Source of the DNA: Symbiodinium sp. CCMP2592 | Lineage: Eukaryota > Sar > Dinophyceae > Suessiales > Symbiodiniaceae | Assembly: GCA_905221615.1 (NCBI GenBank) | Contig: CAJNDT010006013.1 | Location: forward strand, 1,467,879-1,531,878 | Length of the DNA: 64,000 nt | Reading direction: 5' to 3' | In this document: in pieces, positions 8,275 to 63,918 of the stretch | How positions within the stretch are numbered: position 1 is the stretch's first letter | Layout of the letters: every line of letters starts with the position of its first letter | The notes under the pieces: generated by a model | Databases searched by the model: none | Told to the model about the DNA's origin: nothing | Seen by the model: only the letters and a program-made list of their open reading frames with translations | Translations under genes and position numbers: made by a program

Positions 8275-8467
8275 GGGGCGGCTTCATAGAGATAGACCAG
8301 TCGCACTTGAACAGGTACTCACCGTCAGACGTAGGGATTGTCTCCTGCCACCCTCCTCCTCGAAGTGGAACAGCTTCTTTCTCAATCTCCTTGGCTGGCT
8401 TCGCCGAAGAGACCGACAATGCATTGATATACACCTCCGCAGGAGTGTCTTCATCCTCCAAAGGCAA
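8174..8467 (-). pseudogene. Copia linker upstream of RT
   Basis: A 97-codon frame overlapping the end of the oxygenase-like frame and running toward RT. It is rich in Glu, Lys, Pro and Ser and holds GEYLFKCDWSISMKPPRG, but no domain I can name. It lies in a different frame from both neighbours, consistent with indels. Confidence 0.35.
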
Positions 8468-8978
8468 TGGAAAACTCAGCGCTCACAACAGCTCTCGGTC
8501 CAACCTCGGCCCAAGGCATGACAGCGTGACGTCGGTCAGGGTCAACGGAAAAGACTCTCCCCTCTTGCAATGGAAATGCGCAGCCATATCTTGCTCTGCC
8601 CTCTCCGGAAACCAACTCGATCACCTTTCCGGAGACAACATCACCATCACGCAGCTCCATCCATAGCTCACCTCTTCTTCTCGCCATACTGATGGGAAGC
8701 ACATGGTTCATAGCACCTAATGCATTGTTGCGATCAATGTGTACTTCACGCTCATTGTTCATGGACACGTAGATAGCCGCATACTTTGCGTCCGGTGCTC
8801 GCTCTTGCGTCACCTTATTCAGCAACCGAGCAAACCATGGTCTTTCCACCGTGGACTTGGTGACGCCAATTCGCCCTCCATGACGACACATTCCATACAC
8901 CCGATCATCTTCTGGAAGTAGCCGAGCAACTTCCCGAATCAGGTTCTCCGCCTCTTCTAAACTCCAATCCTGCTTCAA
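8451..8978 (-). CDS. Fe(II)/2-oxoglutarate oxygenase-like domain inside copia pol
   Basis: This 175-codon frame lies between integrase and RT on the same strand. Ligand-like residues are H80 and D82 (EVHIDRNN), then ELWMEL, then GRVFSVDPDRRHAVMPW with H151, and R162 in GPRAVVSAEF. The order HxD - beta - distal His - Arg is that of the 2OG-dependent dioxygenase superfamily: two His and one Asp hold iron, and the Arg binds 2-oxoglutarate. The N-terminal part (GRIGVTKSTVERP ... YVSMNN) matches the other copies in this window. All key residues are present, although the element around it is broken. Substrate unknown; TET/JBP-like base oxidation is inference. Confidence 0.65.
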   Translation of the reverse strand: MKQDWSLEEAENLIREVARLLPEDDRVYGMCRHGGRIGVTKSTVERPWFARLLNKVTQERAPDAKYAAIYVSMNNEREVHIDRNNALGAMNHVLPISMARRRGELWMELRDGDVVSGKVIELVSGEGRARYGCAFPLQEGRVFSVDPDRRHAVMPWAEVGPRAVVSAEFSIAFGG

Positions 8979-8982
8979 AACC

Positions 8983-10141
8983 TCAGCCCTCTTTTTGAAA
9001 CTCCGCCTTGAGCCTTGGACACTTCAACGGCGTCTCCTGAGCCAGAAGCCTTTCCGCGCGCACGACGTTCGGGGGTTCAGGTAGATCTGCTTGAACTTCA
9101 TCGTCAGGGGGTCCTGGGTCATGTAATCCAGCCCGAACATGCAAAGTGTGCACGAAGCGCTCCCTGTCATCATCGTTGACGTACACTAAGTGGCCCTTGC
9201 TGAGACTGTCAGACAATCCCACATACGCTCCAGACAGCCACCTCGGTGCCAGATCATCTAGCTTCGGCCCATCTAAATGACGCTTGCGGACCAGCATTTC
9301 TGAGCCACACGGAGCTGCAAGCTTAGGTTCAAATCCAAGGACATCCCCTCTTTGCATAGATGTCGCCGCACTCACAGCCGAAGGCCATAGTCGTTGTGGT
9401 AGTCCTGCTGACAACAGTAATGTCCTAGCCCTTTGCTTCAGCCACGGTATCGTCGATTCCGCTGTCCCATTGGTCTGCTGGACACCCGCCTCAGACGTAG
9501 TCACACACGAATGCCTTCGCCTTGGCGCCACTGTTGAGTCGCTCTGGCTCGATAATCCATACCTCTCGATCGGTGTGAAAGCGAAGCACCGGTATGTTTA
9601 ACGCTCTGCAATAGAGTCAATAGAGGATCACGTCTTGAACCCTTTCAAGGACGGTTGGCGCTTTTTCGTCCTTCAATCCACGCGCAAATATGAGGTTCAC
9701 AAACTCAGGGCCACCAAGGTCTATGTCCTCTTCCGGATCCCGCCTCGGCACCTCTTTAAGCTCAGGTTCCATGTCTTCACCTCCATCATCGCGCGGGTCT
9801 TCTTCTCCACGATCTTCTCCATCAGCAGCAGCCAAACCATCGTCTTGTTCTTCATAGTCCTCTTTGCTAACTTCACCAGGGTCGTAATCAAGCCATACTC
9901 GCCGGCCATCTTCAACGAAATTTTTCGGCGCACGCAACTTCGCAGCAAAGATGTATTTGAACGGCCGTGGGAAAGCACCTCTGCCGTTCGGGTCCACACC
10001 AGCAACTTTCATAATGCCAGACAAGTCTGCCGACACGACAAAGGCCGAGGGGTGCTCAACTCGTGAATGCTTTCTTCCTGTGCCTCCTGCTTGAACACAT
10101 ATTGCGCAATCTGCCCGAAACGGGAGGTGACCTCTTCTCAC
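8983..10141 (-). pseudogene. Copia integrase, frameshifted
   Basis: The N-terminal zinc-binding region reads RGHLPFRADCAICVQ in the frame 9617-10141, followed by the first core Asp in FVVSADLSG. The second Asp (RFHTDREV) lies in a separate reading frame near 9535-9601. The catalytic Glu is in the frame 8983-9531 within QTNGTAES, followed by a typical copia tail (LLLSAGLPQRLWPSAV ... PRWLSGAYVGL). Together these give the D,D-35-E set of a retroviral-type integrase, which would insert the element cDNA into the genome. At least two frame changes and a stop show this copy is dead. An acidic stretch follows the first Asp. Confidence 0.75.
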
Positions 10142-10193
10142 CTGGTCTCTCCCGCTGCTCCGTACTCATCTTCAGCATCCTTGGAACCTTGCC

Positions 10194-10958
10194 TCAGTCT
10201 CGCAAAATTATGGTGAGGTGCTCGTAGAACTCCTGAGGCCACACACACGCCGGCGCCTTCACCGGAACTGATCCATCGGAATGCCACCTCATACGCAGCC
10301 CATCCAAATGCCGAAGATGTAGATTGGTGCCCAGAGTCATATCAAAGCTATAAGTCTGCAGCCCAGCTTCCAAGGCATATTCCGTCCACAACGAAGTCCT
10401 CCACAAACTCACCACATCCGGGTACAATGGGTCCTGGAACTTCAGGTATCCACGAGGATCACGAGTATGCTCTAGGAGAAATGCAGCTTCACGGCTAGAT
10501 TCAGGGTCTGGCTGAGCTCTCAACCTGCCTGCTGTAGCCAAGGCGTGAAGGTAAATCATCCTGGTGATCAGCTTCGTCTCCCTGTTGACAGTCCACACAT
10601 CACTGTCCGATCGGCCCGGCCAGTTTTCGAACGGATACTCATTGGATCGAACTGGTTCAGGTCCTCCAACCACGTGCCGGGAGATCATGAAGGTGCTCTG
10701 CGGGGGGTGCCGACGATCGCTGCAGTCTTTCCCTTCCGGGCCCCAAAATCCAGCGCTCGCCCGGTACTTGACCCTCTCGATGTCGAGCTCCAGAATCGTA
10801 TATCCGTGGCCCTCCAAGTTGAACAACACGTCGCTCAGACTTCCCAGCATACAGGTGAACAGGCCACTTGTTAGACGACCACAATCGCTTTCTCGTCCTC
10901 CGACAAAGCCTACCCCCCGTTCTCTTCTGGAACAGCATCCGCCAGACCGGCCTTGCAT
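10194..10958 (-). pseudogene. Copia segment between protease and integrase, possible methyltransferase-like
   Basis: A 254-codon frame fills the gap between protease and integrase, where classical copia elements have only a short linker. It includes FLLEHTRDP and SLWRTSLWTEYALEAGLQTY, followed by LGTNLHLRHLDGL. From memory, dinoflagellate copia proteins carry a similar block (LLEqPaDP ... PSxWRT) that looks like the C-terminal part of a cytosine C5-methyltransferase-type fold. I see no clear S-adenosylmethionine-binding motif or PPC catalytic loop here, so the assignment is weak. It could equally be an element-specific domain of unknown role. Confidence 0.35.
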
Positions 10959-10960
10959 TC

Positions 10961-11843
10961 CTATGGCACTTCTTGAAAGAAGGGTGCGCTTTCAACCACC
11001 TTCAGAGCTTGTGAGGTGATCTCACCATCGACATACGAAATCAGATAGTCAAAGCACGTTCGCTCCATGGCAAGCGCTGCCGCCTTCACTCTAGTCCGAG
11101 TGTCCGCTGTTCTCCGACGGAGCTCTTGCAGCCTCGCACCCTCAAGCTGAGAGATCAACCTCGACGCCTCCTGCTCTGTGACCTCCGGACATCCTTCACG
11201 AACACGAAGAACAATAACCTCGCCATTCTTGCCCTCTAGCTTGCACTTGGTTTTTCCCCACGTCATTGTGTATCCCAACTGGCTAACCAAGGCTCCCAAC
11301 GGCACTATCGGAGAAGCAGAAGTCGCCGAGGTCATCGAGTTAATGGGTACAAGAATTGTACCCGCAGCATTCATGCGGAGACCAATGGACTCGCCGCCAG
11401 CAAGGTTCACCGTCACTTGATCAGACTCCTCCCACTCCTCCTGGGATGTGGCACGCCACAAAGCATGCGTAGATCCCAAGTCAACTAGCGCAAACATTGC
11501 CAACTCATCAGAAGTAGAAGCCGGCTTTCTCAACGCCATGACACTCACCGAAGGAGACTTAGGGTTTGGAGGCTGAGCTCCGGCGACTTTCGCCGCTGCC
11601 TGAAGCAAGCTTTCAAGAGTCCAGACTGGCTCCCCTGCTACCACCTGAGGCACTGCCACTGGTGACGTTTCCCCCTCCGGCTCGACACTGGTGACCTTCG
11701 GGGCATTCGTAGGCGAAGTAGTCGAAGATGATGCCGAACCCGCAGCTTGAAACGCCTGCCGGTCTTCCGCTCTGCTTCGGCGTCTTTGTGGGACAGTCCT
11801 TGTGTCTGTGTTCTTCACTGCCACATACTAAGCATTTGCGCAC
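10961..11843 (-). pseudogene. Copia zinc knuckle and aspartic protease segment
   Basis: One frame (11613-11843) starts with a CCHC knuckle, CLVCGSEEHRHKDCP (Cx2Cx4Hx4C), typical of retroviral-type nucleocapsids. The overlapping 287-codon frame (10961-11824) contains FALVDLGSTHALW near residues 110-122. This sits where copia proteases have their DTG/DSG active site, but the triplet reads D-L-G-S. The flanking pattern (hydrophobic stretch, Asp, Gly-Ser/Ala-Thr, Ala-Leu) still supports a retropepsin. Copia proteases cut the polyprotein inside the particle. The central T/S to L change suggests loss of activity. Confidence 0.55.
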
Positions 11844-11851
11844 GCTCCGCC

Positions 11852-12755
11852 TTACTCACCCCCATTCATGTCATGCACATATGGACAACGCTGACCACGC
11901 CGACACCCACCCTGCTTCAGGAAGTATTTGCACTCAGGCTTCGAAGTGGTTCCCGATGGTGCCGAGGAGCTTATAGGAGTTGTCCCCAAGGCCTTGACCG
12001 CGGGTACTGGAGCAGGAATGACCGTCCGCGCCGCAATCATAGACTCAGTCTCAGCCTGCAGGTGCTGGTGGTACTTCACGACGTCCAGGAGTCCAGGTTG
12101 TCCATCGATCCCCAGGCTCGACCGCAAAAGCTGTGTGCGGAAGTGCGTGTCCGCATTCTCGGCCACGAATTTCGCGACCGTAGTCAGGGCTTTGGCAAGG
12201 ATCGTCCGGTCCGGAACCATCATGCTCAAGTCTTGCACCTTTGAACCCATCGGGGCCACGACCTCAACCAGGTCAAAACATCATCCACAGACGTTGGCTG
12301 CGCCGGGCTCTGCAAGTTCCCCAGCACTCCTGATCGCTCAGACGCACCTCCAGGTTAATAACACGTGTGTAGCCGGAAGAGCATAAGAGGAGCGCTTTGA
12401 ACCGCTCGTCTTGCAATCAGATCTAGTCTGATCGCCTCCACTAAGCTCTGGAAGATCAGCGAACAAGTCCTCGAGTTCACCCTGGTTCACTTGGCCGAGG
12501 TCCACGCCTCATGTCCAACCGGTTCCAGCTGAAGCCTTTCAAGCGGGGTCGCAGAAAGCCATGTAGAATACGCTTCGGATCCAACGAGATTCGCTGGACC
12601 CGAGCCTCGAGCTCCGGTTTCCGCCCCGTTCCCTCCACATGAGCAGCTCCAGCATCAACCCCATTCTGTAGCGGAGCGCTTGCGCCATTTCCAGCCTGGG
12701 TGCTCATAACCTGAAGATCAGGACTTACGGCAGTCGAAGACAACGGTCCATCCAT
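11852..12755 (-). pseudogene. Copia gag remnant with CCCH zinc finger
   Basis: Two minus-strand open frames (12477-12755 and 11852-12259) make up a broken gag. The second ends with a CCCH zinc finger, CKYFLKQGGCRRGQRCPYVH, just before its stop. CCCH fingers at the gag C-terminus also occur in the plus-strand copia and in the tyrosine-recombinase element of this window. The finger would bind the element RNA during particle assembly. The 12260-12476 interval between the frames is not open in one frame, so the gene is interrupted. Confidence 0.6.
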
Positions 12756-15225: not shown

Positions 15226-15229
15226 GAGG

Positions 15230-15253
15230 TAAGACATTACGGGCCCCATATTT
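15230..15253 (+). repeat. Left arm of 24-bp inverted repeat
   Basis: Starts TAAGACATTACGGGCCCC and ends ATATTT; perfect reverse complement of 18409-18432. It contains the palindrome GGGCCC. Confidence 0.9.
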
Positions 15254-18192: not shown

Positions 18193-18408
18193 CCTTCAGT
18201 GTTCTCGCCCTTCGGGCCTAAACCAGCCAAGAAGTGAGTCAAACCTCCTGCTCTATAGTCACGTCGACAGTTGAAACAAGCACATGTATGGGTATACGCA
18301 CAAGTATCCTATTTAAGAATATGCATATGATGATAACGATATCGTGTGCACGAGTGATGTTGCTTCAAATCTGAAGCAAACCAAAAACATGAAAAACAGT
18401 AATGCTGT

Positions 18409-18432: not shown

Positions 18433-18436
18433 TTTT

Positions 18437-18654: not shown

Positions 18655-18695
<41 letters not shown>

Positions 18696-19620: not shown

Positions 19621-19639
19621 GGTACCAAGTATCAACAGA

Positions 19640-26668: not shown

Positions 26669-27120
26669 AGCCCATCAAGACAGCAGTGTTGCATGATTCT
26701 GTGCTCGGTCAGGAATGCTATATCATCCTGCTGTGCCGGTGCTAGCGAACTGACTGCAGGGGTAGCCGTTTGTGGGGGGCGCGCGAGCAGCACGTGCTCC
26801 GAAAAAATTGCACGCATGTTGCCCAGCGCCCACGGCTACCCTACGCGCCACACCCACATTGCTGCAGGTACCTTCAGAGTGAGGCTTGCCCACTCAAGTG
26901 TGCCACTGGCCACGTCAGCTTTTGCGTGCAATTCGTTCTTGGGAAAAATTGTTGTCAGAACCGACTTGAAGGCAGATACAGAAAAATTGCTTGATTGAGC
27001 CTTCATGCCTGCGATACATTCTTTCTTTATTGCCACCTACGGATATGGGGTTCGAGACTCCGTGCTGCACTGCCGGAGAACAGCCTCACTATCCGTAGTG
27101 TGCTGAAAGTCAGCATGGAG

Positions 27121-27838
27121 GATGAAACTGACAAGAGACCTCCTCCTGAAGCCCATGTGGTGCGAATTCCTTACTCCTTGGAAACAGAGGACAGCATCCC
27201 CCAATGCATGCCAAGGCCCACTCATGTAGCTGAGCAAATTGCGGCGGACATGATTGTCAGTGGGCAAGTCCGTATGAACATTTGGGAGCTATTATGCGGC
27301 TGTCTGCCCACCAGTGAACTGCGCAGAGAGGCCAGCACAGATCGCTCCAGCGGTATGTGCTTCTTCAGTGGAGGCTACAGTCAAAGCCCACAGTATGGAT
27401 TGCGATGCATCACCACGCTGTTCCCTTGGGTGACGCTTCTGGTTTGCAAATACACGAGATCCTGCACTCATGTGCCATTCTCAAGTTTTGTGCTACATCG
27501 CAATACCTCGATGTGCGCACATCGGGATCTCAACAATAACCCTGACAGCGTCAACGTTGTGTTTCCTTGCTGAACCTTCACTGGCGGTGGCCTCTGCATG
27601 GTTGCAATCCCCGAGTGGTGACTGCCCTTCTCTGGATGGCACCCTTCGCGGACATGTGCACAACCTTACCATGTCCGGGGTTGCATTCAATCCGCATAAT
27701 TGGCATGAGACCTGCCTCTGGGAGGGACATCGTAACACCATTGCGATTTACACCGCCAAAGCGGTAACTACCCTCAATCAGGATGACATCGACACCTTTC
27801 GTCGTCTACAGTTTGTGCTGCCAGCCCTGGAACCGTGA
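27121..27838 (+). pseudogene. Broken Fe(II)/2-oxoglutarate oxygenase-like gene
   Basis: The first frame (to 27573) carries GMCFFSGGYSQSP, GLRCITTLFPWVTLLVCKYT, FSSFVLHRN and then the iron-binding pattern AHRDLNNNPDSVNVVFPC, ending at a TGA. Immediately after, sequence encoding FTGGGLCMV continues without a gap. A second frame (to 27838) carries FNPHNWHETCLWEGHR (distal His and 2OG-binding Arg), IAIYTAKAV and LQFVLP. Every element of the family seen elsewhere in this window is present, split by a stop and a frameshift. It stands alone, with no RT or integrase beside it. Confidence 0.6.
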
Positions 27839-33177: not shown

Positions 33178-33275
33178 CTGCGCGACAACGCTTCGGCATC
33201 ATGCATGGTGGAGGCACCATGCGCGGTGCGACGGGCTCCCGTGGAAGCAACTGTGCAGGTCGGCACAAGCCGCTA

Positions 33276-45111: not shown

Positions 45112-45841
45112 TTGACAATGGACATTGTGCCTTTTATCGCTGCAACGGGCAACACGGATGGTCAGAGAACAGAAGCGGAGGCCAATCGGTATTTCCTAAA
45201 ACTACTGCTGGAAAACAACCAGGTCAATATCTTCCTGAGCGATCCTCGCATACAGCAGGCACTCGAACTCAGAGCGGAGAGACGGCATCAATTCGTCCTC
45301 GACAATGTCTATGCTGAGGCGAATGCGTACATAGCGCACTTGGAAGCCACCGCAGATGTTAACCACCGACAGCAACTAGCATTCGTGAGTCAGTCTACCA
45401 ATGTGCTGGTAGGGCAACTTCACAGCGAAGCTAGGGTGCTCGAAAGCATTGTTCGTGCAGAACAGCGAACAGCACAAGAGCTTCAGGCACAGCTGACACG
45501 CACACATCAGGAATGTCAAGACGAGCGGTCATTGGCTATGCGGTTTGATGCACATCGCTCCGAGCTGGAAGCAGCTGCGCACACACTCACCGCGGAACAC
45601 AGACAGCACGAACATCATCTCGCTGAGTTGCGCACTTCTTTCGACGAAAACCGTAATGAGCTCATAGAGTATTTGGGTTCCGAATTTGAGGAAAAGCTTC
45701 AGTGGGAGGAGAATGAAAGTGAGTTTCGGCTTACCTTTGAGGAACAGCAGTACGACAGCTTGATTGACGATCTTCATGATCGCAATGCGGAGCTTATAGC
45801 TGAGGTCAACTCTATAAGGACTGTCTTGACGACAGCGCAAA
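45112..45841 (+). pseudogene. Copia gag, N-terminal part (interrupted by insertion)
   Basis: About 243 codons of highly helical, charged sequence with heptad-like spacing (LRAERRHQFVLDNVYAEANA, LHSEARVLESIVRAEQRT, DDLHDRNAELIAEVNSI), a strong coiled-coil candidate. The frame runs into the inner element at 45842. Beyond that element, 56575 resumes an open frame in the phase that would continue this one. That and the shared strand are why I join the two as one gag. Coiled coils are usual in retroelement gag proteins, where they help particle assembly. The call as gag rests on position, not on a recognised motif. Confidence 0.5.
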
Positions 45842-45943
45842 GGTTCCTGTGTTTACTCAGGGTTGTTTCGGACTTACTCTTCCCGCGGCCCCGCTTGGGT
45901 TCAAGCATACACCACGCAACAGCAGCTTGCTTTCAAAAACTTT
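45842..45943 (+). repeat. Split direct repeat A1
   Basis: 102 bp that by eye are identical to A2 at 56079-56180. It includes a 13-mer (45908-45920) that is the reverse complement of a 13-mer near the end of each B repeat. Confidence 0.93.
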
Positions 45944-46048: not shown

Positions 46049-46366
46049 ATGGACAACCTGCCGGCCGCTTTCCGCCCTCAGCTGCAGCTCCAACTGACCG
46101 GAGAGGTCAGATCACTGCTCGATAGGCTCGTCGACTTGGAGGCTGAGGGGGCCGCACAACGAGCGGAAATCTCCCGCTTGCACTGCAGGGTCAGCCGGCT
46201 TGAAGCTCAGGTACATCAAGGTCACAACTGGCTTTTGCACTTAGCGGACAGGGCCACCTCATTGGAAGAGGTCACACAGAAGCTTTCTATCAGGCTGCGG
46301 GCCTTGGTCAGCTTGCTCCGCGAAACGCTTTCTGAGACTGTTGCCCGTCTTCGGATCTGGTTCTAG
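46049..46366 (+). CDS. Small coiled-coil ORF1
   Basis: A 105-codon ATG-started frame with Leu/Ile/Val heptads (LLDRLVDLEAEGAAQRAEISRL, HLADRATSLEEVTQKLSI). It is the first ORF after the A1 repeat, and its stop ends two bases before the ATG of the recombinase ORF. That tight spacing suggests coupled expression. A gag-like or assembly role is possible, but no specific motif is seen. Confidence 0.6.
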   Translation: MDNLPAAFRPQLQLQLTGEVRSLLDRLVDLEAEGAAQRAEISRLHCRVSRLEAQVHQGHNWLLHLADRATSLEEVTQKLSIRLRALVSLLRETLSETVARLRIWF

Positions 46367-46368
46367 GT

Positions 46369-48489
46369 ATGGCTGCCTCTGGCTCGGGCGGTGGTGATGC
46401 ACCAGCTTTGCCTTCTAGCAGGGTGGCTACGGACATACTCTTGGCTGACTCATCGCCTTTATGCACGGATGCTGACGCTTTGGAACTTAGGGAATCTTTT
46501 CGCAACCACTTTGCTGACTTTGCGGACCCTGAGTACCCTAATCAAGTGCCCTCAGCTTCGGCGCCCACTTTTGAGGTTGCCGATTCAGATGCAGAGGAAG
46601 CCTTTGAACCCAGGAGCAAGCTTCGACGCCGCTGGCTTCACCAAGCACATTGTGCCCCGGTGACTCTTCCCCTACCTATGGAAACCAGCCCAGGTGCATC
46701 CAGCGGTGATCACTCTTGGCAGCTTATAGAGCAGCACCAGCCGGAGGCCGAGACGCCTTCCTTTGAGGGGCTCACTTCAGGCTATTCGACCTTTCAGTTT
46801 TTACCGCTGCGACCAACCCCTCCTCGACCCAGCTTGTCAGCTACGTCGAGGGCACCCACTTGGCGGGCTCCAAGGGTGTGCTTAAGGTACAACTCCCCTT
46901 TTCAGGTGGGGCACACCGGGCGTCAGCCTACAGTGGCTCGGCTCCGCCCACGCTCCCCCTTTTCAGCCCCGCTTCAGGCCCCCAGCATTGTACCTGTTCA
47001 GCAGTCTACACCGCAAAACTTCCCGGCGGCGAAGGCACTGCCGCACTTTCAGGACGCGTCGGCTTATGCAGCATATCCTACGCTTCAGCAGACTCCTGTT
47101 CAGGCATCAATCTCTTTGGCGACTCCTAGACCGGTCCAGTCCTCACCGGCAGCTTTGCGAGTGCCCTTGGAACTGCACCCCCCGGCGTTGCGAGCTCCGA
47201 CAGCTGGCATGATGACGAGCAAGGAAAATCATCAGGCATGCGATGAGCGGAACAAGGCTCTTTTCGACCAGCTTTGCAAATCGCATGGGGCCTACAGCTC
47301 GGTGCTGCAGCAGCTTGAAAGTAGCCGCGAGGGAGCCGTGATTCGGTCCCGCTTGCTGAACAAGGTTAGCGACACCACAGCCGCCCGCTACCTTCGATCT
47401 GTTCAGCTTTTCTTTTGTGCCTTTGAGGAGCTGGGCGGCAGCATGGAGGCCATAGATCAGGGTCTGTTCCTCGATGCTTTCTTCGCTTTGTCTCGAGGTG
47501 CTGATTCAGGCCCCGTTTCAAATAGCATCAACGTCCTCAAGGCGCTCCGGTGGTATAAGAAACTTCTGGCAATCGCTTGTATGCCCGACTTGTATGGCAC
47601 CGCTTTCAGCCTGCTCTCCAACCCGGCCGGGCAGGAGAAACGCGAGAGTATACCTCTCCCTTTGTCGTTCGTCGCTTTTCTTGAACGCATGCTCCTGTCT
47701 GGCAAGGCAAGCTTGATGGACATGATCTGGGCAGGCTCCTTCCTTGTGGCTATTGGTGCTAGCCTCCGCTTTGCAGATGCACAACACATTCGCTGGAGCA
47801 CGCTCTGCGTTAGCAGCTTCACTTTGCGAGGAATCTGCTACAGGACAAAGACCACTAAAGGGGGATGCCCATGGGGCCTCCTCAGCTTTGGAGTCTTCTC
47901 GTCCTCCGAGGAATGGGGCATGACATGGCTTCCCCACTGGCTTGGGGCACTGGACACAGTATGGTGCGAGGTTCGCTCCCGCTTTGGGCCCGACTGTCTG
48001 TTTTTCCTTTGGAGCGATACCGGCTTTGCACCCGCATCCTACTCCCAAGCCCTGCAGAAGCTTCGCTACATGCTTACACTCTCTGGTATAGCACCGGCTC
48101 AGGCAGCACAATATACGCTTCACAGCCTCAAGACCACCTTTCTGTCTTGGATGAGTCAGCTGTCTATCCCACTCTCTTCCCGCTTCCTGCAGGGGCACCA
48201 CAAGGCTCCAGGGTCAGCTCAACTTTACTCGCGGGACGACGTGTGGCCAGCTTTGCGTGCACAGTGGCTGCTTTGGCGTTCAATACACGCCGGCTTTCGT
48301 CCAGCGAGACCACAGCACAGAGGCGGCCAGTCCCCGCTTGTTGAGCCACTTGTGGACACTGCAGGTTTCCAGTGGGTGGAGCACTGCCCGGACCTCTCCT
48401 GCTTTTCCGTTGGCAACGACTGTCAGTCCTTCTTAGCCCTGGAGCAGCAGGATGGCGACCTCCGTGACGCCCGGGAACGCGTCTGTTAA
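46369..48489 (+). CDS. Tyrosine recombinase (YR)
   Basis: 706 codons from an ATG two bases after the ORF1 stop. The first 300 residues are Pro/Ser/Ala-rich. From about 330 there is a SAM-like N-terminal helix bundle (TTAARYLRSVQLFFCAFEEL, NSINVLKALRWYKKLL). The catalytic half then has R467 (GASLRFADAQHIRW), a Lys in RTKTTKGG, H585 and K588 (TLHSLKTTFLSW), H610-H611 (LQGHHKAPGS) and Y620 (AQLYSRDD). This is the R-K-H-x-x-R/K-H-Y set of site-specific tyrosine recombinases, with K where HxxR is canonical; I recall the same change in other dinoflagellate copies. The protein would integrate circular element DNA. Confidence 0.85.
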   Translation: MAASGSGGGDAPALPSSRVATDILLADSSPLCTDADALELRESFRNHFADFADPEYPNQVPSASAPTFEVADSDAEEAFEPRSKLRRRWLHQAHCAPVTLPLPMETSPGASSGDHSWQLIEQHQPEAETPSFEGLTSGYSTFQFLPLRPTPPRPSLSATSRAPTWRAPRVCLRYNSPFQVGHTGRQPTVARLRPRSPFSAPLQAPSIVPVQQSTPQNFPAAKALPHFQDASAYAAYPTLQQTPVQASISLATPRPVQSSPAALRVPLELHPPALRAPTAGMMTSKENHQACDERNKALFDQLCKSHGAYSSVLQQLESSREGAVIRSRLLNKVSDTTAARYLRSVQLFFCAFEELGGSMEAIDQGLFLDAFFALSRGADSGPVSNSINVLKALRWYKKLLAIACMPDLYGTAFSLLSNPAGQEKRESIPLPLSFVAFLERMLLSGKASLMDMIWAGSFLVAIGASLRFADAQHIRWSTLCVSSFTLRGICYRTKTTKGGCPWGLLSFGVFSSSEEWGMTWLPHWLGALDTVWCEVRSRFGPDCLFFLWSDTGFAPASYSQALQKLRYMLTLSGIAPAQAAQYTLHSLKTTFLSWMSQLSIPLSSRFLQGHHKAPGSAQLYSRDDVWPALRAQWLLWRSIHAGFRPARPQHRGGQSPLVEPLVDTAGFQWVEHCPDLSCFSVGNDCQSFLALEQQDGDLRDARERVC

Positions 48490-50169: not shown

Positions 50170-50607
50170 TTTTGCCCCCGCTCCATGCTTATGCCGGCTT
50201 TGGCATTGAATCGCCCACTTTTGGGCTTGCCCATATAGATCAAGGGCAGCCCCGCTTGGGCTTGTGGGTATAAAGCGCCCGGCTTCTCCGAAGCCAGACA
50301 TACTCGAGCTCCGCTTCCCGCTTGAAAAAGCCAGCAGACCCACGCCCCGCACGCTCGGGAACAGTTCACGCTTTGAACTTGTGGCTTGTTTTTCACTCTT
50401 GTTTCCCGCTTGGATCAAGAAAGACTTCCGGGCCCCCCCCCGGCTCTGGGTATCCCGCGCTCCCACGTTACAGGCCACAGATGCCCACTTGTCATCACTA
50501 GCAACATGCTTCCCTGCTGCAGGACCACTTCGGGCAACGCTGCATCCTCAGTTTCAGTTCTTTGCCTACTTTTGGCAGTATGTGCACCTGCTTCAGGTCA
50601 AGCGAAG
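50170..50607. other. Spacer upstream of gag
   Basis: About 440 bases between the low-complexity ORF and the gag ATG. It is open in the gag frame from 50386 but without an ATG I trust, and it carries several CCCGCTTG/CCGCTT words. It may serve as the leader for gag-pol expression. Confidence 0.4.
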
Positions 50608-51915
50608 ATGGCTGACTTCACGCAACTAGTGGCCGACTGCAATGTGCCAGCAGCTGTCGCCCCTTTGCTTTCAGCATTCGACGTTGCTTTGTTTGCCCGG
50701 TCCTGCACCACTTCGGCAGAGCTTGAAGAGTTGGTGAACCACTTTCTGGCGGAAGCCTCAGTTACTGATGCAGCTGAGCGCTTTATCACCAAAGCTTCGC
50801 TTCGCTTGCTCTTTTGCAAATGCCGAACTTCAGAGGGCATGGCATCCTTGGAAGCCGCTCCCACTCCCACCACACCGCTTGGGGATGGGCCTCCCGCTGC
50901 TACCCCGGCTCCCCCGGCCACGCCTCCGCTTTCCAGCTCCTGGCAAGAGGCTTGGCCTGCGAAGCTGAGTGGGGAGCGAACCGCGGCGCTTAGGAAGAGG
51001 TTCGAGGAGGACTACCCCACTGAACTTCTTGACGCCGAGAGCTTTCCAAGCGCCCGCTTATTGGCCCTCACCAATAAGATGCTTTCAGACAAGGAGGTGC
51101 GATGGATTCCTTGGAAGTACCGCTTAAGCGCTCGTGCTCAAGAAGACAGTCTCCTCGTTCGGCCCAGGAAACAGGCCCGCTTTGACCTAACAGAGCTCTT
51201 TCTGGACGAGGCGCCTACACGTGACATACATGAAGGCCCCGCTTCCTTTGGCCTCGTCACTCAGCTTCTGTCACTGGCTGCCAATGCCATTGCGCTCTGT
51301 CAAGGTGCACATCTTGGGTCTCTGAAGCTTTATAATAAACGCTTCATGAGGATCTGCTTCACGAAGTACGATGCCGCCGCCAGCTTACGAGGTCCCACTA
51401 CCGTGGAAGCCCAGGCCGCCGACCGCCGCTGTTGGGAAATCATCGCCGACTTAGTCAATGTGCACCACTGGAAGTTGGACGATGCGCTTCACGAAGTGGC
51501 CGAGGTGCGCTCTGACATGCACAGCCTGCTTGCACCGAGGCCCTTTATTCCCAAACCGAAGTTCGACCCGGACAACAGCTGGAAGGCCCGCTTCACAGGC
51601 AACGGTCGAGGCGGCAAAGGCGGTGGCCGCGGCGGCAAAGGCCGTGACGGCAAGGGCGAGAAGGGAGAGCGCTTTGAGAGAGGGGGCAAAGGTGGCAAGG
51701 GCAAGGACAACAAGCAAGCCACCCCCCCCGGCAAGTGGCTTTCCACCCTCTTCATGGATGGCAAACGTCAGACGCTTTGCATGAGGTACCAGAGCGGGCA
51801 GTGCAAGGACCCGGCCACATGCCGCTACTTGCACAGATGCGCAGTGCCTAAGAGTGACGGCACAGCTTGCGGAGGCAATCACCCAGCTTCGCAACATGTT
51901 GCCACCCCGCATTAG
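50608..51915 (+). CDS. Gag-like protein with Gly/Lys-rich region and CCCH finger
   Basis: 436 codons from the in-frame ATG (MADFTQLVADCNVP). The N-terminal half is helical, followed by a Pro-rich linker and a second helical domain (ALRKRFEEDYPTELLDAES, FGLVTQLLSLAANAIALCQG). Near the end there is a Gly/Lys/Arg-rich stretch (GRGGKGGGRGGKGRDGKG) of RGG type and a CCCH finger, CMRYQSGQCKDPATCRYLH, both expected to bind RNA. It ends with TAG at 51913-51915, and the pol frame continues in the same phase. The role as gag is inferred from position, RNA-binding features and similar CCCH fingers in the two copia gags here. Confidence 0.65.
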   Translation: MADFTQLVADCNVPAAVAPLLSAFDVALFARSCTTSAELEELVNHFLAEASVTDAAERFITKASLRLLFCKCRTSEGMASLEAAPTPTTPLGDGPPAATPAPPATPPLSSSWQEAWPAKLSGERTAALRKRFEEDYPTELLDAESFPSARLLALTNKMLSDKEVRWIPWKYRLSARAQEDSLLVRPRKQARFDLTELFLDEAPTRDIHEGPASFGLVTQLLSLAANAIALCQGAHLGSLKLYNKRFMRICFTKYDAAASLRGPTTVEAQAADRRCWEIIADLVNVHHWKLDDALHEVAEVRSDMHSLLAPRPFIPKPKFDPDNSWKARFTGNGRGGKGGGRGGKGRDGKGEKGERFERGGKGGKGKDNKQATPPGKWLSTLFMDGKRQTLCMRYQSGQCKDPATCRYLHRCAVPKSDGTACGGNHPASQHVATPH

Positions 51916-54900
51916 GAAACCCACTTCAGCGAGCTGCGGGACATCGCTGAGGAGGTCACGACCGTCCCGCTTAGTGTGCCGGCGCAACCGTCAGGCTCAG
52001 CAGGGGCCACTTCGGCACTGCCCAAGGCACGTGCCCTAGTCTCCGATGCAGCATCGGCACTCAGTGAAGGCTCTCTCGATTTCGCTACTTGCTTGGAGCT
52101 TCTAGCGCAGTACTTTTCCATTCCCTTCGCTTCTTCTTCTCTCTGCCCCGACAATGCCATTGCAGCCTCTGAAGCATATTTCAATTTGGGGGCTTTCGCT
52201 TTTGACAATGGCGCCAGGTCGGGCATCTTTCAGCGTACCGAGCAATTTTCAGACGTTCTTCGATTCTTGAACGCTTTTATGCAGCTTCAGTTCCCTGAAG
52301 CCTCCTGGAGCTCCCTCTGCGTCAGCCACAACGTTCGCACCCGCTTACACACAGATTCTGGCAACGCTGCAGGGTCTCTGAATCACACAGTTTCACTTGG
52401 CAACTTCAGCGGTGGCGAGGTTTGGCTTTGCCCCGCTTTGAACCAGGCGGCTTCTCAGGTACCAGCCCCCTTGGATGCCTCATCCGAGGCGCACAGTGCA
52501 TCTGAAGCGGGTACAGGCGAGGTGCGCGACACATGGCACGCGCCGCTCTCCTTTAGCTGTGAAGCACTTCACTGTACGCTTCCGATACAAGGAGACCGGT
52601 GGGTATTGACTGCCTACACTTGCAAGAGCCTAGACCGCTTTGATGCAACGTCACTGGCACACCTGAGGTCTCTGGGCTTCCCGCTCCCGCCGGCAACCCC
52701 ATGCCACCCGCAGTCAATACATCCCCCGCTCAAGGACACGACATGCGTGGAGCTCTTCCTGGATATATGCTGTGGGGCCGCTCACCCACTTACCACGGCG
52801 ATGTCTTCATACGGAATCACTTGTCTGCCCATAGATCTACTGGGCGAGGAGCAACTCGACCTGCTCAACGACGACACCTACGACCACTTGCTTCGGCTGT
52901 GCTTTGCTGGGATCGTCCGCTTAGCTCACGGATCGCCACCCTGCAAGGAGTACTCCCGCTTGAAGCTTCGTCCAGGTGGACCTCCAGCCATTCGATCGCC
53001 GGATCACATGAATGGTCTGCCAGGGAACACCGCTTCTCAGCAAGCTAGAGTACACAGCAGCCAGAAGCTTCTATATCGTTGCGTATGCCTTCTGAGAGCA
53101 GCTTTTTGTTCAGGCGCACATGTATCCCTGGAACAACCCACTAACGCCATGTCCTGGCTTGAGCCTTTTGTTCAGGACATGCTTTCCGAAATACAGGCCT
53201 CACTGGTCAATATCCCGGCATGTTCAGTGGGACAGGATATAGCAAAATCGTGGCTTTTTGCTTGCAGTTACAGCGAATTCCGCTTTCTGGCAAGCACATG
53301 TTCGCATGCAGGAGGCCACCAGTCCGTCGCAGGAACCAGGGACGAACACGGGACCTTTTTGTCCCAGAGGACGGCGGAGTACCCGTCCCAGCTTGCCGAG
53401 AAATTCTCAGCGCAGGCAGTGCACTTGTTTTCTTCGGCAAGACCTGCTTATTCGGTTGCGCCCTGTTCCTTGAAGTTCGCACTGGCCTCAGTTCCCAAAA
53501 AGCCGCGTTCATCAACGCCTACAGCAGCACAGGATGGCGGGGGCATCTACTCTTTGCCCGACTGGTCCCTTGGCCCAAGGTACCAGTCCGACAGCTTACA
53601 CGACCTGCGGAAGGAATGGCAATCTTGGCTGCTTCAGAACAGAATTCCTCTCAGACTCCAGCAACACGTTGCCGAAGCCAGCAATAAACCGCTTTTCTCA
53701 AAGGAAGAAACGGAGTGGCTTCGCTCTTCTTTCAAGCGCTTTTCGGACGCTCACTCCCCGTGCCAGGACTGGAACTTCTCAGTGACAGAAGGCCAGCCAT
53801 ACTGCTTGTCTGCACTGGAGCGCTTGAGTACTATGCTGGGTGACAAGGACACTTCCCTTTTCCCCGCTTTGCAGAAGGGTGTGCCTACGGGGTTCGACGG
53901 CGACATCCCTCGCAGCCACACACTCCGACCTCGTGATCCCAACAACTCAGACGAACCCACTGACCTGCTTGTTTGCGAAGGTAACTGGCAGGGGGCTGAG
54001 GCAGACCCGGCACTGCTTCAGGAGTTGATCGAGGAGGAGGTTTCGGCCGGCTACATAGAAGAAGTTCCCAGCTTAGAGGCTGCTTACGAAAGGTGGGGCA
54101 AGGATCGTGTTGCGGTGGGCCGTGTGAACATTGTCAAAGCCCCAGGACGCTCTGCCCGCTTGGTTATAGACAACAGCATCTGCAACACGAACCAGAACTG
54201 CCACGTGCCTGAACAGTTCTCCTTGCCCAGCCTCCAGGACATTCAGTCCGCTTACCCTCCGAGGGAGGACGAGGAGCCGGTTTCGGGTTTCAGCTTAGAT
54301 GTGAAGGGAGCGCACAAAACTTCACTTGTGCGCGAGAAAGACAGAGGCCTGCTTGGACTAAGACAACAAGAACGCCTCTTTTTCTACCGTGTCTGTCCCT
54401 TCGGGGCCACTTTTTCTAGCCACTGGTTTGCCCGCTTAGGGGGCTTTTTCGTGCGCTGCCTTCACCTACTTATCTGGTTGTCACACGTCCTCATGCTGTA
54501 CGTCGATGATTTGCTTCTCTGGCAAAATTCTCGTGCACTGCCGCTTAGCGCTTCTCTGGTCTTGGCATTCTGCGCCTGCTTCAACATACCGCTTAGTTGG
54601 CGGAAATTGCAGATGGGGCCGTCTATAACCTGGATAGGGTGGCAGATCGACTTCAAGGCTGGCTGTTACACTTTACCAGAGCTCAAACGCTTGAAGCTGC
54701 TTGTCCAGGTGGAGGAATGCCTTCGGCACCGACTTGTCAGCCGCAAACAGCTTGACAAACTGCTAGGTCTGCTTCAGTGGATTCTGCATGGTCTTCCTGC
54801 TTTACGCCCCTGGCTATGCACTCTGTATGATGACATGCATAGACCACTTGGTACCAATGTCAGCATCAGCCCAGTTGTTTGGCCAGGCATCCACTCTTAC

Positions 54901-55782
54901 CTGGACGACAAGCTTCGCTTCACAGGTTGCCCCCCGGGCACGGGCATTTCACCTGGCTCAACGCTGCTTTCAGCTCGGCATAAGCCTCTTAAGAGTAAAG
55001 AAGACCTGGCTCTAGTCCCCGTAAGCACAAAGCGCATGTGGCTCCGAGTTACGGACCCCACTTCCTCCAAGCGGCGCTTATGTGAATCCAGCAGAGAAAC
55101 CCTTGCCTTCTTTGCCCACTTGAGCTCCAGGGACTGGCGGCCCAGGCCACTTCGACCACCACCTACCAGTTCGGTGGAGTCGGCCGCAGATGCTTTCGGC
55201 AAGGGCAATGATTGTGGCGTGGGAGGTTGGCTCCTCCTCCCCAGCGGACGCCTGCTTTGGTTTGCTCACCGCTACACAGTCAAAGACTTCCTGGACTTAG
55301 GCCTACCCATGCAAGCAGATGCCAACCTAGACATCTCCAGCTACGAGACATTGGCACAGTGCTTTGTGCTTTTGGCTTTTTGGAAAGCCCATGGTTCCGG
55401 TCGCTTGGCTTTGACATTACCAGCTTTGAGCGATAATAGTGGTGCGGAGTCTGTGTGTAATAAGCTTTACACCTCTAAAGTACCACTTAACCTTTTCGTT
55501 CGCAAGCTTTCAATGTGGAGCTCGATTACCGGTGTCACTTTGGACTGCAGCCATATAGCTGGCGAGAAGAACGATGACGCAGACCTGCTTTCTCGGTGGG
55601 ATGGCTCCGCGGAACTCCCTGCCAAGTTTCTGGCTTCGAACCGCATCGAGCTCTCACTTTCTGAGTTCTGGCAGATCCGCTTTCAAGTGACGCTTTTTCC
55701 CGCTGACACATTTTTGAAATGGCAGCTTCCGTCAGCTGACAGCTTGGGCCCGACAAACCGCGGTTCAAGGAAGCGCAAGTAG
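51916..55782 (+). CDS. Pol: 2OG-oxygenase-like, C5-methyltransferase-like, RT, RNase H
   Basis: The frame is open from the codon after the gag TAG; residue numbers here count from 51976. Oxygenase-like domain (about 75-240): H125-x-D127 (RTRLHTDSGN), FSGGEVWL, H199, R208 (GDRWVLTAYT), LRSLGFPLP. Methyltransferase-like domain (about 258-480): FLDICCG (261-267), GSPPCKEYS with the PPC loop at 321-323, and LEQP (385-388). RT: FSLDVKGAHK with D775, and LYVDDLLL with Y842-D845. RNase H: AADAFGKGND, SSYETLAQ, LSDNSGAES, NDDADLLSRW. The end is basic (SRKRK), a possible nuclear signal. No frameshift was seen over 1,268 codons. Confidence 0.8.
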   Translation, partial: ETHFSELRDIAEEVTTVPLSVPAQPSGSAGATSALPKARALVSDAASALSEGSLDFATCLELLAQYFSIPFASSSLCPDNAIAASEAYFNLGAFAFDNGARSGIFQRTEQFSDVLRFLNAFMQLQFPEASWSSLCVSHNVRTRLHTDSGNAAGSLNHTVSLGNFSGGEVWLCPALNQAASQVPAPLDASSEAHSASEAGTGEVRDTWHAPLSFSCEALHCTLPIQGDRWVLTAYTCKSLDRFDATSLAHLRSLGFPLPPATPCHPQSIHPPLKDTTCVELFLDICCGAAHPLTTAMSSYGITCLPIDLLGEEQLDLLNDDTYDHLLRLCFAGIVRLAHGSPPCKEYSRLKLRPGGPPAIRSPDHMNGLPGNTASQQARVHSSQKLLYRCVCLLRAAFCSGAHVSLEQPTNAMSWLEPFVQDMLSEIQASLVNIPACSVGQDIAKSWLFACSYSEFRFLASTCSHAGGHQSVAGTRDEHGTFLSQRTAEYPSQLAEKFSAQAVHLFSSARPAYSVAPCSLKFALASVPKKPRSSTPTAAQDGGGIYSLPDWSLGPRYQSDSLHDLRKEWQSWLLQNRIPLRLQQHVAEASNKPLFSKEETEWLRSSFKRFSDAHSPCQDWNFSVTEGQPYCLSALERLSTMLGDKDTSLFPALQKGVPTGFDGDIPRSHTLRPRDPNNSDEPTDLLVCEGNWQGAEADPALLQELIEEEVSAGYIEEVPSLEAAYERWGKDRVAVGRVNIVKAPGRSARLVIDNSICNTNQNCHVPEQFSLPSLQDIQSAYPPREDEEPVSGFSLDVKGAHKTSLVREKDRGLLGLRQQERLFFYRVCPFGATFSSHWFARLGGFFVRCLHLLIWLSHVLMLYVDDLLLWQNSRALPLSASLVLAFCACFNIPLSWRKLQMGPSITWIGWQIDFKAGCYTLPELKRLKLLVQVEECLRHRLVSRKQLDKLLGLLQWILHGLPALRPWLCTLYDDMHRPLGTNVSISPVVWPGIHSYLDDKLRFTGCPPGTGISPGSTLLSARHKPLKSKEDLALVPVSTKRMWLRVTDPTSSKRRLCESSRETLAFFAHLSSRDWRPRPLRPPPTSSVESAADAFGKGNDCGVGGWLLLPSGRLLWFAHRYTVKDFLDLGLPMQADANLDISSYETLAQCFVLLAFWKAHGSGRLALTLPALSDNSGAESVCNKLYTSKVPLNLFVRKLSMWSSITGVTLDCSHIAGEKNDDADLLSRWDGSAELPAKFLASNRIELSLSEFWQIRFQVTLFPADTFLKWQLPSADSLGPTNRGSRKRK

Positions 55783-55853: not shown

Positions 55854-56079
55854 CGGGCTTTTGCGACTGCTCCGCTGCTTCAGCTTTTGCTTTACGATCT
55901 CGGACGGATCAAAGATCCGATCGGGATAGCCGACGTCTGAGCAGTCGCTTTACCGGCAAGCCGAAAAAAGGACAGTGTGCGTACCTTCTTGCATGCTCCA
56001 GCTTTTACCTGCTTTCGCTTCGCACAGCATTCCTCGCAGTAGCCTTTTGGTGTTGCGTGGTGTAGCAATGTCCTGAACG
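55854..56079 (+). repeat. Split direct repeat B1
   Basis: About 226 bp repeated at 56349-56574 at a constant offset of 495 bp. I see one mismatch (56066 versus 56561). It overlaps the first base of A2. Confidence 0.93.
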
Positions 56080-56180
56080 GTTCCTGTGTTTACTCAGGGT
56101 TGTTTCGGACTTACTCTTCCCGCGGCCCCGCTTGGGTTCAAGCATACACCACGCAACAGCAGCTTGCTTTCAAAAACTTT
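56079..56180 (+). repeat. Split direct repeat A2
   Basis: 102-bp copy of A1, directly following B1. The 13-mer at 56145-56157 is inverted relative to 56052-56064 in B1, so B1 and A2 can fold together. Confidence 0.93.
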
Positions 56181-56348: not shown

Positions 56349-56574
56349 CGGGCTTTTGCGACTGCTCCGCTGCTTCAGCTTTTGCTTTACGATCTCGGAC
56401 GGATCAAAGATCCGATCGGGATAGCCGACGTCTGAGCAGTCGCTTTACCGGCAAGCCGAAAAAAGGACAGTGTGCGTACCTTCTTGCATGCTCCAGCTTT
56501 TACCTGCTTTCGCTTCGCACAGCATTCCTCGCAGTAGCCTTTTGGTGTTGCGTGGTGTAGTAATGTCCTGAACG
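56349..56574 (+). repeat. Split direct repeat B2
   Basis: Second copy of B and right end of the element. The host copia sequence resumes at 56574/56575. Confidence 0.93.
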
Positions 56575-61814: not shown

Positions 61815-61909
61815 ATGCGCGATCGCTGTCTTCAGGATTGGTGGGATGGCGAAACCTACTTCGACCTTGGAGGCCGGGAACAGTCTGATTTCGAGCTGGC
61901 AGTTGCAGC

Positions 61910-61923
61910 TACCCGCAAGGGTA
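61910..61923 (+). repeat. GCAA-loop hairpin 7
   Basis: TACCC, GCAA, GGGTA; read as A-T-R-K-G. Confidence 0.78.
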
Positions 61924-62635
61924 AGCCGGTTCGTAACAAGTCTGAGGCTAAGAAAGAGGCGAAGCAAAGCAAGTTCATTTCCCTTTCACAAGACCAGAAA
62001 GCGAAGCCCGGTGCACGCATCACTTTTGACATGAAGGACTTCCTGGATTCCTGTGTTGAGCGGTATTGTGAGCTTGCCAAAGTTGAGCGCAAAACCCTGA
62101 AACCAGCTGTGACCCCGGTGACCCCCTTTCATGAACTTCGTGTGGCGTTGACAACAGCTTCTGAAGGGGAAAAGGCAGGGCGGTTGCAACCGATCGCAAG
62201 TAAGGTGTTGATGAACATTTTATTTGCTGCTCGCATGGCAAGATGGGATCTTTTGAGGGCAACGCAGTCTTTGGCGTCGAGGGTGACCAAGTGGAGTCCG
62301 GATTGCGTTTTAGGACTTCATCGTTTGGTTTGCTACATCAACTCTTCGCTTGATGTCCCTATGAGTGGTTTCATCGGTGACAGTATTATGGATTGCAGAC
62401 TTTGGTTGTTCAGCGATTCCGACTTTGCGGGTGAGTTTGACTCAAAGTCAACAACTGGGTGTGCGATGTTTTTGGTTGGGCCGAACACGTACTTCCCACT
62501 CAACGCCTTTAGCAAAAAGCAAACTTCGATCACAATGAGCTCTACTGAGTCCGAAATCGTAGCGGCAAACCATGGTTTACGTGCCGAAGGTCTACCTTGC
62601 CTGAGCTTGTGGTATTTCCTCTGGCGTGGAGATGC

Positions 62636-62649
62636 CGGCCGCAAGGCCG
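62636..62649 (+). repeat. GCAA-loop hairpin 8
   Basis: CGGCC, GCAA, GGCCG; read as A-G-R-K-A within RNase H. Confidence 0.78.
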
Positions 62650-63294
62650 AGCCAAGGGCTGAGAGGGTGGACTCGATAGTCGCACGAATTGACCCCGAAC
62701 TTGATGAGATTCGATATGGGTCCAATAGACCGGATGGGTTGTCGATAGCAGACATCAGTGGCCTCTGCGTCCAACTTCCTGAAAGTTTTGAGGTTGGGCA
62801 TTTGGAGGATAACGAAGCAACTATCACCCTTTCGTTGCTGGGGCAAGCTGGTGTTCTACGACATACAGATCGGACGCAGAGGGTAAGCTTTTCATGGCTA
62901 AAGCAGCAATATGAGAATGGGCACTTCAAGCTACTGAATGGCGGTACAGCTGAACAAGTGGCGGATGTTTTCACGAAGCCTTTCACTGAAAAGAACAAGT
63001 GGACGCATGCCCTGAAGCTCATTGGACATACAACCAGCGCGAATGTAGCCGGGTGCAAGCCCGAGTCGAAGGTCGAGGTCGACAACAAGGTTTCGGTAGC
63101 AGCAGCTCCGGATGCAGCAAAGGCCGTCGAGGACTTCGCTAAGCAATCGTTCGACTCTAATGACTTCAGTTTCAAGACCTTCGAGAAGCTAGCTGGACTT
63201 ATTCGTATCAATCTCGAAGCTTCATTGGCAAAACCGCGATCATATATGGCTTTCGAGACAGTATCCAAGTACTTGGTATTCGGCGCTTGGGTTC

Positions 63295-63918
63295 ATGGAG
63301 GATGCTTTGGTGTTACCAATCGCACAAAACAATACCCATGGATTTGCAGGTATGTCAACGAATTTGTTAAGCGATCATCGCCGAATGGGTTTACATGGAC
63401 TTCGTTCGTGTTCAACTTCAATGGCAAGGCCCGCAGATAAGTACAACCAAAAGGAATCGTACAATTTGACGTTCTCCTTCGGTAACTATACAGGGGGGAC
63501 ACTGTGGATTGAAGGAGCAAGCCAATTGGGACCGCCGGCAATGTACAAAGATGATCATGGGCAAGACCACAAAGGCAACAACTGCAATACATACCGCAAG
63601 CCCACTCTGCTGCATCCTTCTACAAAACACGGGGTACAACCCTACACTGGTGAACGACATTCATTCATCGCCTACTCATCAGGGGGGTACCAGAAGTTTA
63701 ACAAGAAGCAAAAGCAGATCCTACATCAAGCACAGTTCCTCTTGCCTACGGCTCAGTTGAGGTTACCAGCTCAGAAAGCAATGGTTTGTTTGGGGTTATG
63801 TGTTCGTTCCCCTTCCGATGAGGGGGGTAGGGTTTCAAAACCGTGTTCTCGTTTCGAACATGATTCGTTTGCACACATCGCTCGAGTGCACAAACACACA
63901 ACAAGCTGCAAGCCTTGA
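63295..63918 (+). pseudogene. C-terminal 2OG-oxygenase-like domain of copia, iron ligand altered
   Basis: From about 63430 this frame continues the domain begun in the RNase H frame: RPADKYNQKESYNLTFSFGN, YTGGTLWIEG, TKHGVQPYTGERHSFIAYSS and LHQAQFLLP. Compared with the other four copies, the HxD motif reads P-A-D: the first His is Pro while Asp, distal His and Arg are kept. Position after RNase H differs from the minus-strand copia, where the domain precedes RT. Beyond 63760 the frame has no recognisable feature. Confidence 0.55.

Follow-up and report, generated by a model that had tools for sequence, protein, structure and literature searches.

Iyer et al. reportedly described TET/JBP genes on fungal DNA transposons and Helitrons in 2014. 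Such genes on these two kinds of element are documented in the available passages of a 2025 fungal study, which also discusses why retrotransposons lack them (PMC12730594). The same passages describe phage hypermodification systems combining a C5-methyltransferase (C5-MTase), a TET/JBP enzyme and a glycosyltransferase. From Symbiodinium, SymbioDIRS-Dnmt3 and SymbioLINE-Dnmt have been reported, the former DIRS-like with the layout A-coding-B-A-B and a DNMT3-type domain in pol, as well as Copia elements without any DNMT domain (PMC5890265); none of the terms TET, JBP, hydroxymethyl-, oxygenase or dioxygenase appears in the main text of that paper. Among the literature matches listed, a scope outside which most subscription papers fall, none reported a retrotransposon-encoded TET/JBP domain; the published mobile-element genes found there belong to DNA transposons and Helitrons, and carriage by retroelements would extend this arms race. 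The family described here resembles the fungal one, as far as the available passages of PMC12730594 go, in being encoded by mobile elements of several lineages and in having mostly undisrupted genes. Unlike the genes on fungal DNA transposons and Helitrons, it lies inside the polyproteins of DIRS-like and Copia-type retrotransposons, in a dinoflagellate.

The DNA studied was a stretch of 64,000 nt, called the window below, from Symbiodinium sp. CCMP2592 (GCA_905221615.1, contig CAJNDT010006013.1, 1,467,879-1,531,878, forward strand). A first-pass annotation had proposed one oxygenase domain at five loci, here copies A to E. We searched the 954 six-frame segments of at least 40 aa with a profile of domain rows from which copy D had been taken out (A2 minus D, five rows). 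Every copy was recovered: D at 8.4e-93, A at 1.3e-12, and the first and second halves of B at 1.1e-7 and 1.3e-9, of C at 1.1e-9 and 9.4e-10 and of E at 2.6e-7 and 1.4e-14, the best other segment scoring 0.89. The match of D was to be expected since three of the five remaining rows are 58-62% identical to it. Reversed segments gave 1.2 at best and ten shuffles gave one value of 0.0022 and nine between 0.07 and 0.66. The domain is thus homologous at all five loci, and the list of shared parts drawn up before (G-x-T...P, HxD, GGxLW, distal His, G-x-R, AYT-like strand and tail) was correct.

Each copy had been entered as a single span. Across the domain core this holds for copy A, in a 190-aa frame that loses the AYT strand at its end, and for copy D, in a 1288-aa frame; frameshifts interrupt B and E, and a stop codon interrupts C. 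The first half of copy B (26995..27570, + strand) has HRD and its nearest relative is P0037 (2e-10), and the second half (27434..27835, +) has the distal H and R, with P0035 as nearest (3.2e-8). Copy C on the − strand shows the same division, with HRD in the first half (32188..33198, domain from ~32481) and H and R in the second (31906..32184). The H-x-D, the distal H and the R, which form the active site of TET/JBP enzymes and were in part also seen in the alignment to TET2, are complete in A, B, C and D. Copy E, for which HxD had likewise been claimed, reads P-A-D with the first His gone, and its relatives have I-H-T-D. Many open copies of the domain exist elsewhere in the genome, where a first look gave 1962-4727 candidates per query, of which 150 were scored for each; with A and with E as query all 150 matched. 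In the extracted open rows (48, of which 45 are distinct over the profile columns) H, D and R are kept in all 48 and the distal H in 47. The oxygenase domain is under purifying selection.

The predicted domain model adopts the barrel fold of 2OG oxygenases. In both search programs the solved structures closest to it are 2OG oxygenases of nucleic acids, headed by a TET/JBP enzyme, and the earlier assignment to Fe(II)/2OG enzymes was upheld by this model. The solved TET/JBP enzymes NgTET1, CcTet, CMD1 and TET2 are its nearest folds or among them, at only ~10-15% sequence identity in the structural alignments, and the activity is a predicted one. Placement closest to TET/JBP, also proposed before, fared less clearly. 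NgTET1 scored 10.8 and FTO 9.5, a gap of 1.3, and CcTet (9.5), AlkB (9.4) and TET2 (9.3) tie. The alignment to TET2 and the Pfam matches favor TET/JBP: Tet_JBP was matched by five of the 27 members of set A4 (E up to 1), and the best match, that of the L001 domain, reached 30.3 bits (E 2.9e-7), below the curated cut-off of 34.9 bits. The window copies themselves did not match Tet_JBP at the thresholds used, a Pfam search of the window pieces named no oxygenase, and the broad profile A4 had no sequence match in the PDB. The silence of Pfam on the window pieces does not refute the assignment: a relative elsewhere in this genome, tied to D by BLASTP (9e-16), matches Tet_JBP.

AlkB domains occur in the polyproteins of some plant RNA viruses, where they are thought to repair or demethylate nucleic acid. 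An AlkB/FTO-like demethylase with the RNA or cDNA of the element as its substrate, for repair or demethylation, would fit the high fold scores of FTO and AlkB; the Pfam matches listed for the scanned members included no AlkB family, and we regard this alternative as rather doubtful. With FTO and AlkB scoring near NgTET1, the choice of TET/JBP over AlkB draws on several weak-to-moderate lines that agree. A 2OG protein hydroxylase (prolyl- or Asp/Arg-type), with gag or a host protein as its substrate, was suggested because the first fold search included prolyl 4-hydroxylase 6iuq and two of the 27 members matched Asp_Arg_Hydrox (best 0.18). With a better domain model, however, nucleic-acid oxygenases top both fold lists, and we consider such a function extremely unlikely. 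The domain is, in our judgment, probably an Fe(II)/2OG dioxygenase of the TET/JBP branch or next to it, encoded within polyproteins of several families of retrotransposons and acting on the 5-methyl groups of pyrimidines.

Copy D (52060..52707, +) is intact by profile and predicted fold, with HTD, H and R present. Its element, on the + strand throughout, begins with repeat A1 (45839..45943), which is 99% identical to A2 (56076..56180), and repeats B1 (55854..56079) and B2 (56349..56574) are 100% identical to each other. This A-coding-B-A-B arrangement, together with a pol that bears an RT (RVT_1 6e-5, under the Pfam cut-off), makes the element DIRS-like. An open frame of 717 aa (46336..48486) has no Pfam match at 0.1 and is probably a tyrosine recombinase, judged from an HSLK...LQGHHK...LYSR pattern read by eye and from the ORF order as in L005, in whose ORF the one Pfam match, to an integrase SAM-like domain, has a value of 0.42. 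It is followed by a gag-like frame of 512 aa (50377..51912) with a Cys/His cluster near its end, seen by eye, and a weak match to Pfam Torus (0.067). The open pol of 1288 aa (51916..55779) comprises the oxygenase, a C5-MTase-like domain, the RT and, by eye, an RNase H-like part. The C5-MTase-like domain (52735..53442) lies directly 3' of the oxygenase; it has a predicted cytosine-type MTase fold and a PPC motif, and no Pfam match. This DNMT3-like neighbor was absent from the first-pass annotation. The element fits SymbioDIRS-Dnmt3 (PMC5890265) by layout but differs from its published description in having an oxygenase ahead of the MTase-like domain and in the Pfam-negative nature of the latter. 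As in the phage system of PMC12730594, as far as its available passages go, a cytosine MTase(-like) and a TET/JBP(-like) enzyme are encoded together by one selfish element, the pairing described there; here, unlike in phages, both are fused in one retrotransposon pol. In the scanned frames, Pfam named no glycosyltransferase.

Copy A (8454..9023, core ~8478-8885, −) lies between the integrase and RT of a decayed Copia-type element (6357..12280, −), whose parts were read by eye and from the order in L066, and its RT from RVT_2. The element comprises a CCCH gag (11855-12280), a protease (10964-11827), an MTase-like remnant (10197-10991), the integrase (8986-10165; no Pfam match in a scan of 8986-9597), the oxygenase with HID, H and R present and the last strand lost, the RT (6956-7902) and RNase H (6357-7031). 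RVT_2 was matched at 3e-5 (6956-7693), under the cut-off, and at 4.2e-14 in the relative L066. In a second Copia-type element, an RNase H part recognized by eye runs into the first half of copy E (61815..63437 for the two together, oxygenase domain from ~63162, +; 9e-62 to relatives of this element), and the second half of the copy (63424..63762, +) retains the distal H and R. The E element is labeled Copia from its order and its sequence as judged by eye; in the pieces scanned, Pfam named neither RT nor RNase H. The MTase-like remnant of the Copia type aligned weakly to the DIRS MTase profile (hhalign E 2.8e-4, probability 41%). In L066, the one intact copy read, this region has PPR where PPC is expected and looks inactive from its sequence. 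Captured domains may therefore persist without catalysis, as would be the case if the oxygenase were a non-catalytic barrel that the polyprotein retains for structure or DNA binding, a reading also in line with weak Cupin_2 matches in four of the 27 members (best 0.084). Against this, the invariant columns include the metal and 2OG residues although rows outside the family of D are just 21-30% identical to D, and loss of catalysis appears very unlikely.

If the domain is a pyrimidine 5-methyl dioxygenase, it would work within pol, or cut from it, on element cDNA or fresh insertions. In the DIRS-like element the adjoining DNMT3-like domain would methylate cytosine and the oxygenase would convert the product to 5hmC or further, so that the element would modify its own DNA and thereby evade methyl-dependent silencing or mark this DNA as self. 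In the Copia type, where the MTase-like region looks dead in the intact copy, the oxygenase would act on 5mC made by the host or on thymine, the latter yielding 5hmU. We would tentatively go further and propose that the DIRS pol is a two-step cassette that hydroxymethylates its own cDNA, that the Copia oxygenase acts alone on thymine and that intact copies together are a source of genomic 5hmU and of its enrichment in repeats, though we hold this combination to be doubtful. An improbable variant is that the domain makes 5hmU from thymine throughout and that its many open copies are a main source of dinoflagellate 5hmU. JBP enzymes indeed hydroxylate thymine (available passages of PMC12730594), dinoflagellates carry 5hmU in place of 12-70% of T (likewise, PMC6723414), most repeats of one species are enriched in it (likewise, PMC11071213), and the candidates counted in the genome are numerous. 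However, the neighboring DIRS-like domain has a predicted cytosine-type fold, the titles of the NgTET1, CcTet and TET2 structures name 5mC-related DNA, and most intronless DNMT (retroelement) genes are reported silent (PMC5890265). Furthermore, protein searches returned only records named Symbiodinium or unnamed, a single protein in the case of the L005 domain, whereas 5hmU spans dinoflagellates more widely. TET-family enzymes are the likely makers of 5hmU in general according to the available part of a review (PMC6723414), and the literature passages covered name no dinoflagellate gene for it; the element-encoded oxygenases are concrete candidates for making this repeat-enriched base. The presence of a conserved TET/JBP-related domain in retrotransposon polyproteins, in one family beside a DNA-methyltransferase-like domain, suggests that these elements may chemically rewrite their own DNA.

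As to carriers, the first-pass annotation had named two copia elements, a tyrosine recombinase element and two stand-alone loci, and had suggested repeated capture. Carriage by a DIRS-like element and by two elements of Copia type, with the domain at differing polyprotein positions, was supported; for B and C 'stand-alone' was not established. Repeated capture is likely and moderately supported: insertion sites differ, and in a tree of 31 domain rows the two Copia lineages are not joined, E grouping with D at UFBoot 85, support too weak for captures to be counted. The open segment of copy C begins ~80 bp past a stretch that, by eye, looks like the final part of a same-strand LINE.

A homologous, conserved and selected 2OG-oxygenase domain resembling TET/JBP enzymes is carried by DIRS-like and Copia-type retroelements, and the first-pass annotation was right in placing it at five sites of the window (copies A to E). 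Profile A2 was built from copy D (52060..52707, +), from L001, a DIRS-like relative of D's element found by Pfam Tet_JBP in the same genome, and from four protein pieces; D was removed again before all 954 six-frame window segments of at least 40 aa were searched. Eight segments from the five places matched, with E-values from 8.4e-93 to 2.6e-7, and the next-best reached 0.89. Reversed segments gave 1.2, and ten shuffles gave 0.0022 once and otherwise 0.07 to 0.66. Since three of the five remaining profile rows are 58-62% identical to D, the proper test lies in the seven non-D segments. The L001 domain as sole query ranked the same eight segments on top (E 4.9e-13 to 0.21; next 0.6), and D aligned with L001 in BLASTP at 30% identity across 168 aa (E 9e-16). 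In hmmscan, L001 matched Tet_JBP at 3.6e-6 for a piece of its frame and at 2.9e-7 for the domain alone, whose 30.3 bits are below the cut-off of 34.9. Searching the own-genome assembly (1.098 Gb, 5383 contigs; the 64-kb window lies on contig C5151) with Tet_JBP, we obtained matches for 4 of 150 scored candidates (best E 2.2e-4); this profile matched in 0 of 14 control genomes. The domain region of D shows 100% identity to a sequence from Symbiodinium sp. CCMP2592, which makes a Symbiodinium dinoflagellate the likely source.

The active site had been described as HxD, a distal His and G-x-R throughout. HxD, the distal H and R are present in A (HID...H...GPR), B (HRD...H...GHR), C (HRD...H...DR) and D (HTD...H...GDR); E has lost the first His (PAD), keeping H and GER. 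The core is open in A and D, frameshift-broken in B and E, and interrupted by a stop codon in C. For a wider residue count the domain was cut from genome loci with at least 141 open profile positions; 64 of 66 were used, as L033 dropped out and so did L036 (broken copy E of the window). L001 and L005 are one place, and L006 is window copy A. Together with window copies A and D, these loci gave 48 rows distinct as strings and 45 distinct over the profile columns, by type 27 A, 12 E and four L001, plus L066 and D. H, D, the N at +5 from H, and R each occurred in 48/48 rows and the distal H in 47, with a Y instead common to L026 and L027. Alignment A5, a selection of 27 rows that share 21-62% identity with D, has the invariant columns G53, G64, H106, D108, N111, N117, G128, G162, H180, P184, G187, R189 and F216. 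One of the ten relatives in alignment A1, protein record P0028, is garbled where HxD is expected.

Nei-Gojobori dN/dS of the domain, from pairs with dS of 0.05-1.5, had a median of 0.072 for A-like copies (29, 27 distinct; 14/351 pairs usable, most being saturated) and 0.168 for E-like copies (29, 26 distinct; 176/325 pairs), and was 0.18 for the single usable L001-like pair of three. In 100-aa bins, the A-like domain had pN/pS values of 0.31 and 0.24 and its flanks 0.18-0.67, so that the domain is constrained about as tightly as pol. For the E type, the two bins within the domain gave 0.26 and 0.06, those towards RNase H 0.04-0.07 and those beyond the domain end 0.11-0.52; the bin straddling that end, where synonymous changes are few, gave 1.66. 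In this type the domain is in part constrained less tightly than RNase H.

Own-genome searches scored the best 150 first-look candidates per query. Candidates are not confirmed copies, and the counts are lower bounds biased to intact copies, because only these 150 were scored. For A, all of the best 150 of 3704 matched; 147 have no internal stop, and open frames of 3034-3043 aa hold at least 30 of these. For the second half of E, the best 150 of 2254 likewise all matched (148 without stop); many are close relatives (91-93%) in 2974-2987-aa frames, and many others are distant (about 40%), with frames of 3187 aa. For the second half of B, 148 of the best 150 of 1962 matched; its close relatives among these were few and in short frames, and B thus looks like a member of a small, decayed lineage. 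With D, all of the best 150 of 4727 matched. A frame of 1288 aa occurs in nine rows, counting the window itself, and the identical domain recurs at one other locus. Frames of 1183 aa hold most of a second set, at about 40% identity, and frames of 1244 aa hold a third set.

As annotated, the carriers belong to different retroelement types, D lying in a DIRS-like pol and A and E in Copia-type elements, at different polyprotein positions. Copy A sits between integrase and RT of a decayed element. Its relative L066 has a single frame with CCCH finger, protease, MTase-like remnant, integrase (rve 0.13), oxygenase (aa 1681-1854) and RT (RVT_2 4.2e-14), the protease, remnant and integrase being labelled mostly by eye. 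This MTase-like remnant (L066 aa about 900-1120; 10197-10991 of the window, -) separates the protease from the integrase, and in hhalign it aligned weakly to the DIRS MTase profile (E 2.8e-4, prob 41). Its motif reads PPR in place of PPC and is therefore probably inactive. In a different Copia-type polyprotein, copy E lies downstream of a region read by eye as RNase H. In its family member L064, an open frame of about 500 aa continues beyond the oxygenase to the locus end (aa 612-1110); the sole Pfam match of the 1110-aa piece is weak (TPIP1 0.072, aa 438-460) and outside this stretch.

The DIRS-like element of D starts with repeat A1 (45839-45943), followed by recombinase-like, gag-like and pol ORFs and, 3' of pol, by repeats B1 (55854-56079), A2 (56076-56180) and, last, B2 (56349-56574). 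The A1/A2 pair is 99% and the B1/B2 pair 100% identical, which points to a probably young insertion. The pol reads oxygenase, MTase-like, RT (RVT_1 6e-5) and RNase H-like (by eye), and the open relative L005 has the same ORF order. This layout resembles SymbioDIRS-Dnmt3 (de Mendoza et al., PMC5890265), in the main text of which the words TET, JBP, hydroxymethyl-, oxygenase and dioxygenase are absent. For the MTase-like domain of D's pol (52735-53442), the predicted fold is DNMT3-like and a PPC motif is present. It had no Pfam match, so that numbers of DNMT retroelements obtained with Pfam may be underestimates for this genus. P0035, a DIRS-like pol, has kept the oxygenase site (HRD, H, R) and shows no PPC in the MTase-like stretch of alignment A1; the oxygenase may have been kept there without the MTase.

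A tree of 31 rows gave four groups: L001/P0037, D with P0035, copia E, and copia A with L066. Copia E joins D (UFBoot 85) and not copia A. Together with the differing insertion points, this favours, without proving, the repeated capture or exchange between element classes that had been suggested.

The oxygenase would oxidise 5-methyl pyrimidines on element DNA and, in DIRS-like elements, might act together with the MTase. In dinoflagellates 5hmU is reported in place of 12-70% of T (PMC6723414), and in Breviolum minutum it is enriched over most repeats (PMC11071213).

Long low-complexity repeat tracts at 1990-3204, 13138-15311 and 18317-19717 produce spurious long open frames. A decayed LINE lies at 33279-36483 (-), with an Exo_endo_phos match at 8.8e-6 and with RT and a C-terminal finger recognised by eye; on the same strand, the open segment of copy C starts some 80 bp after its end.
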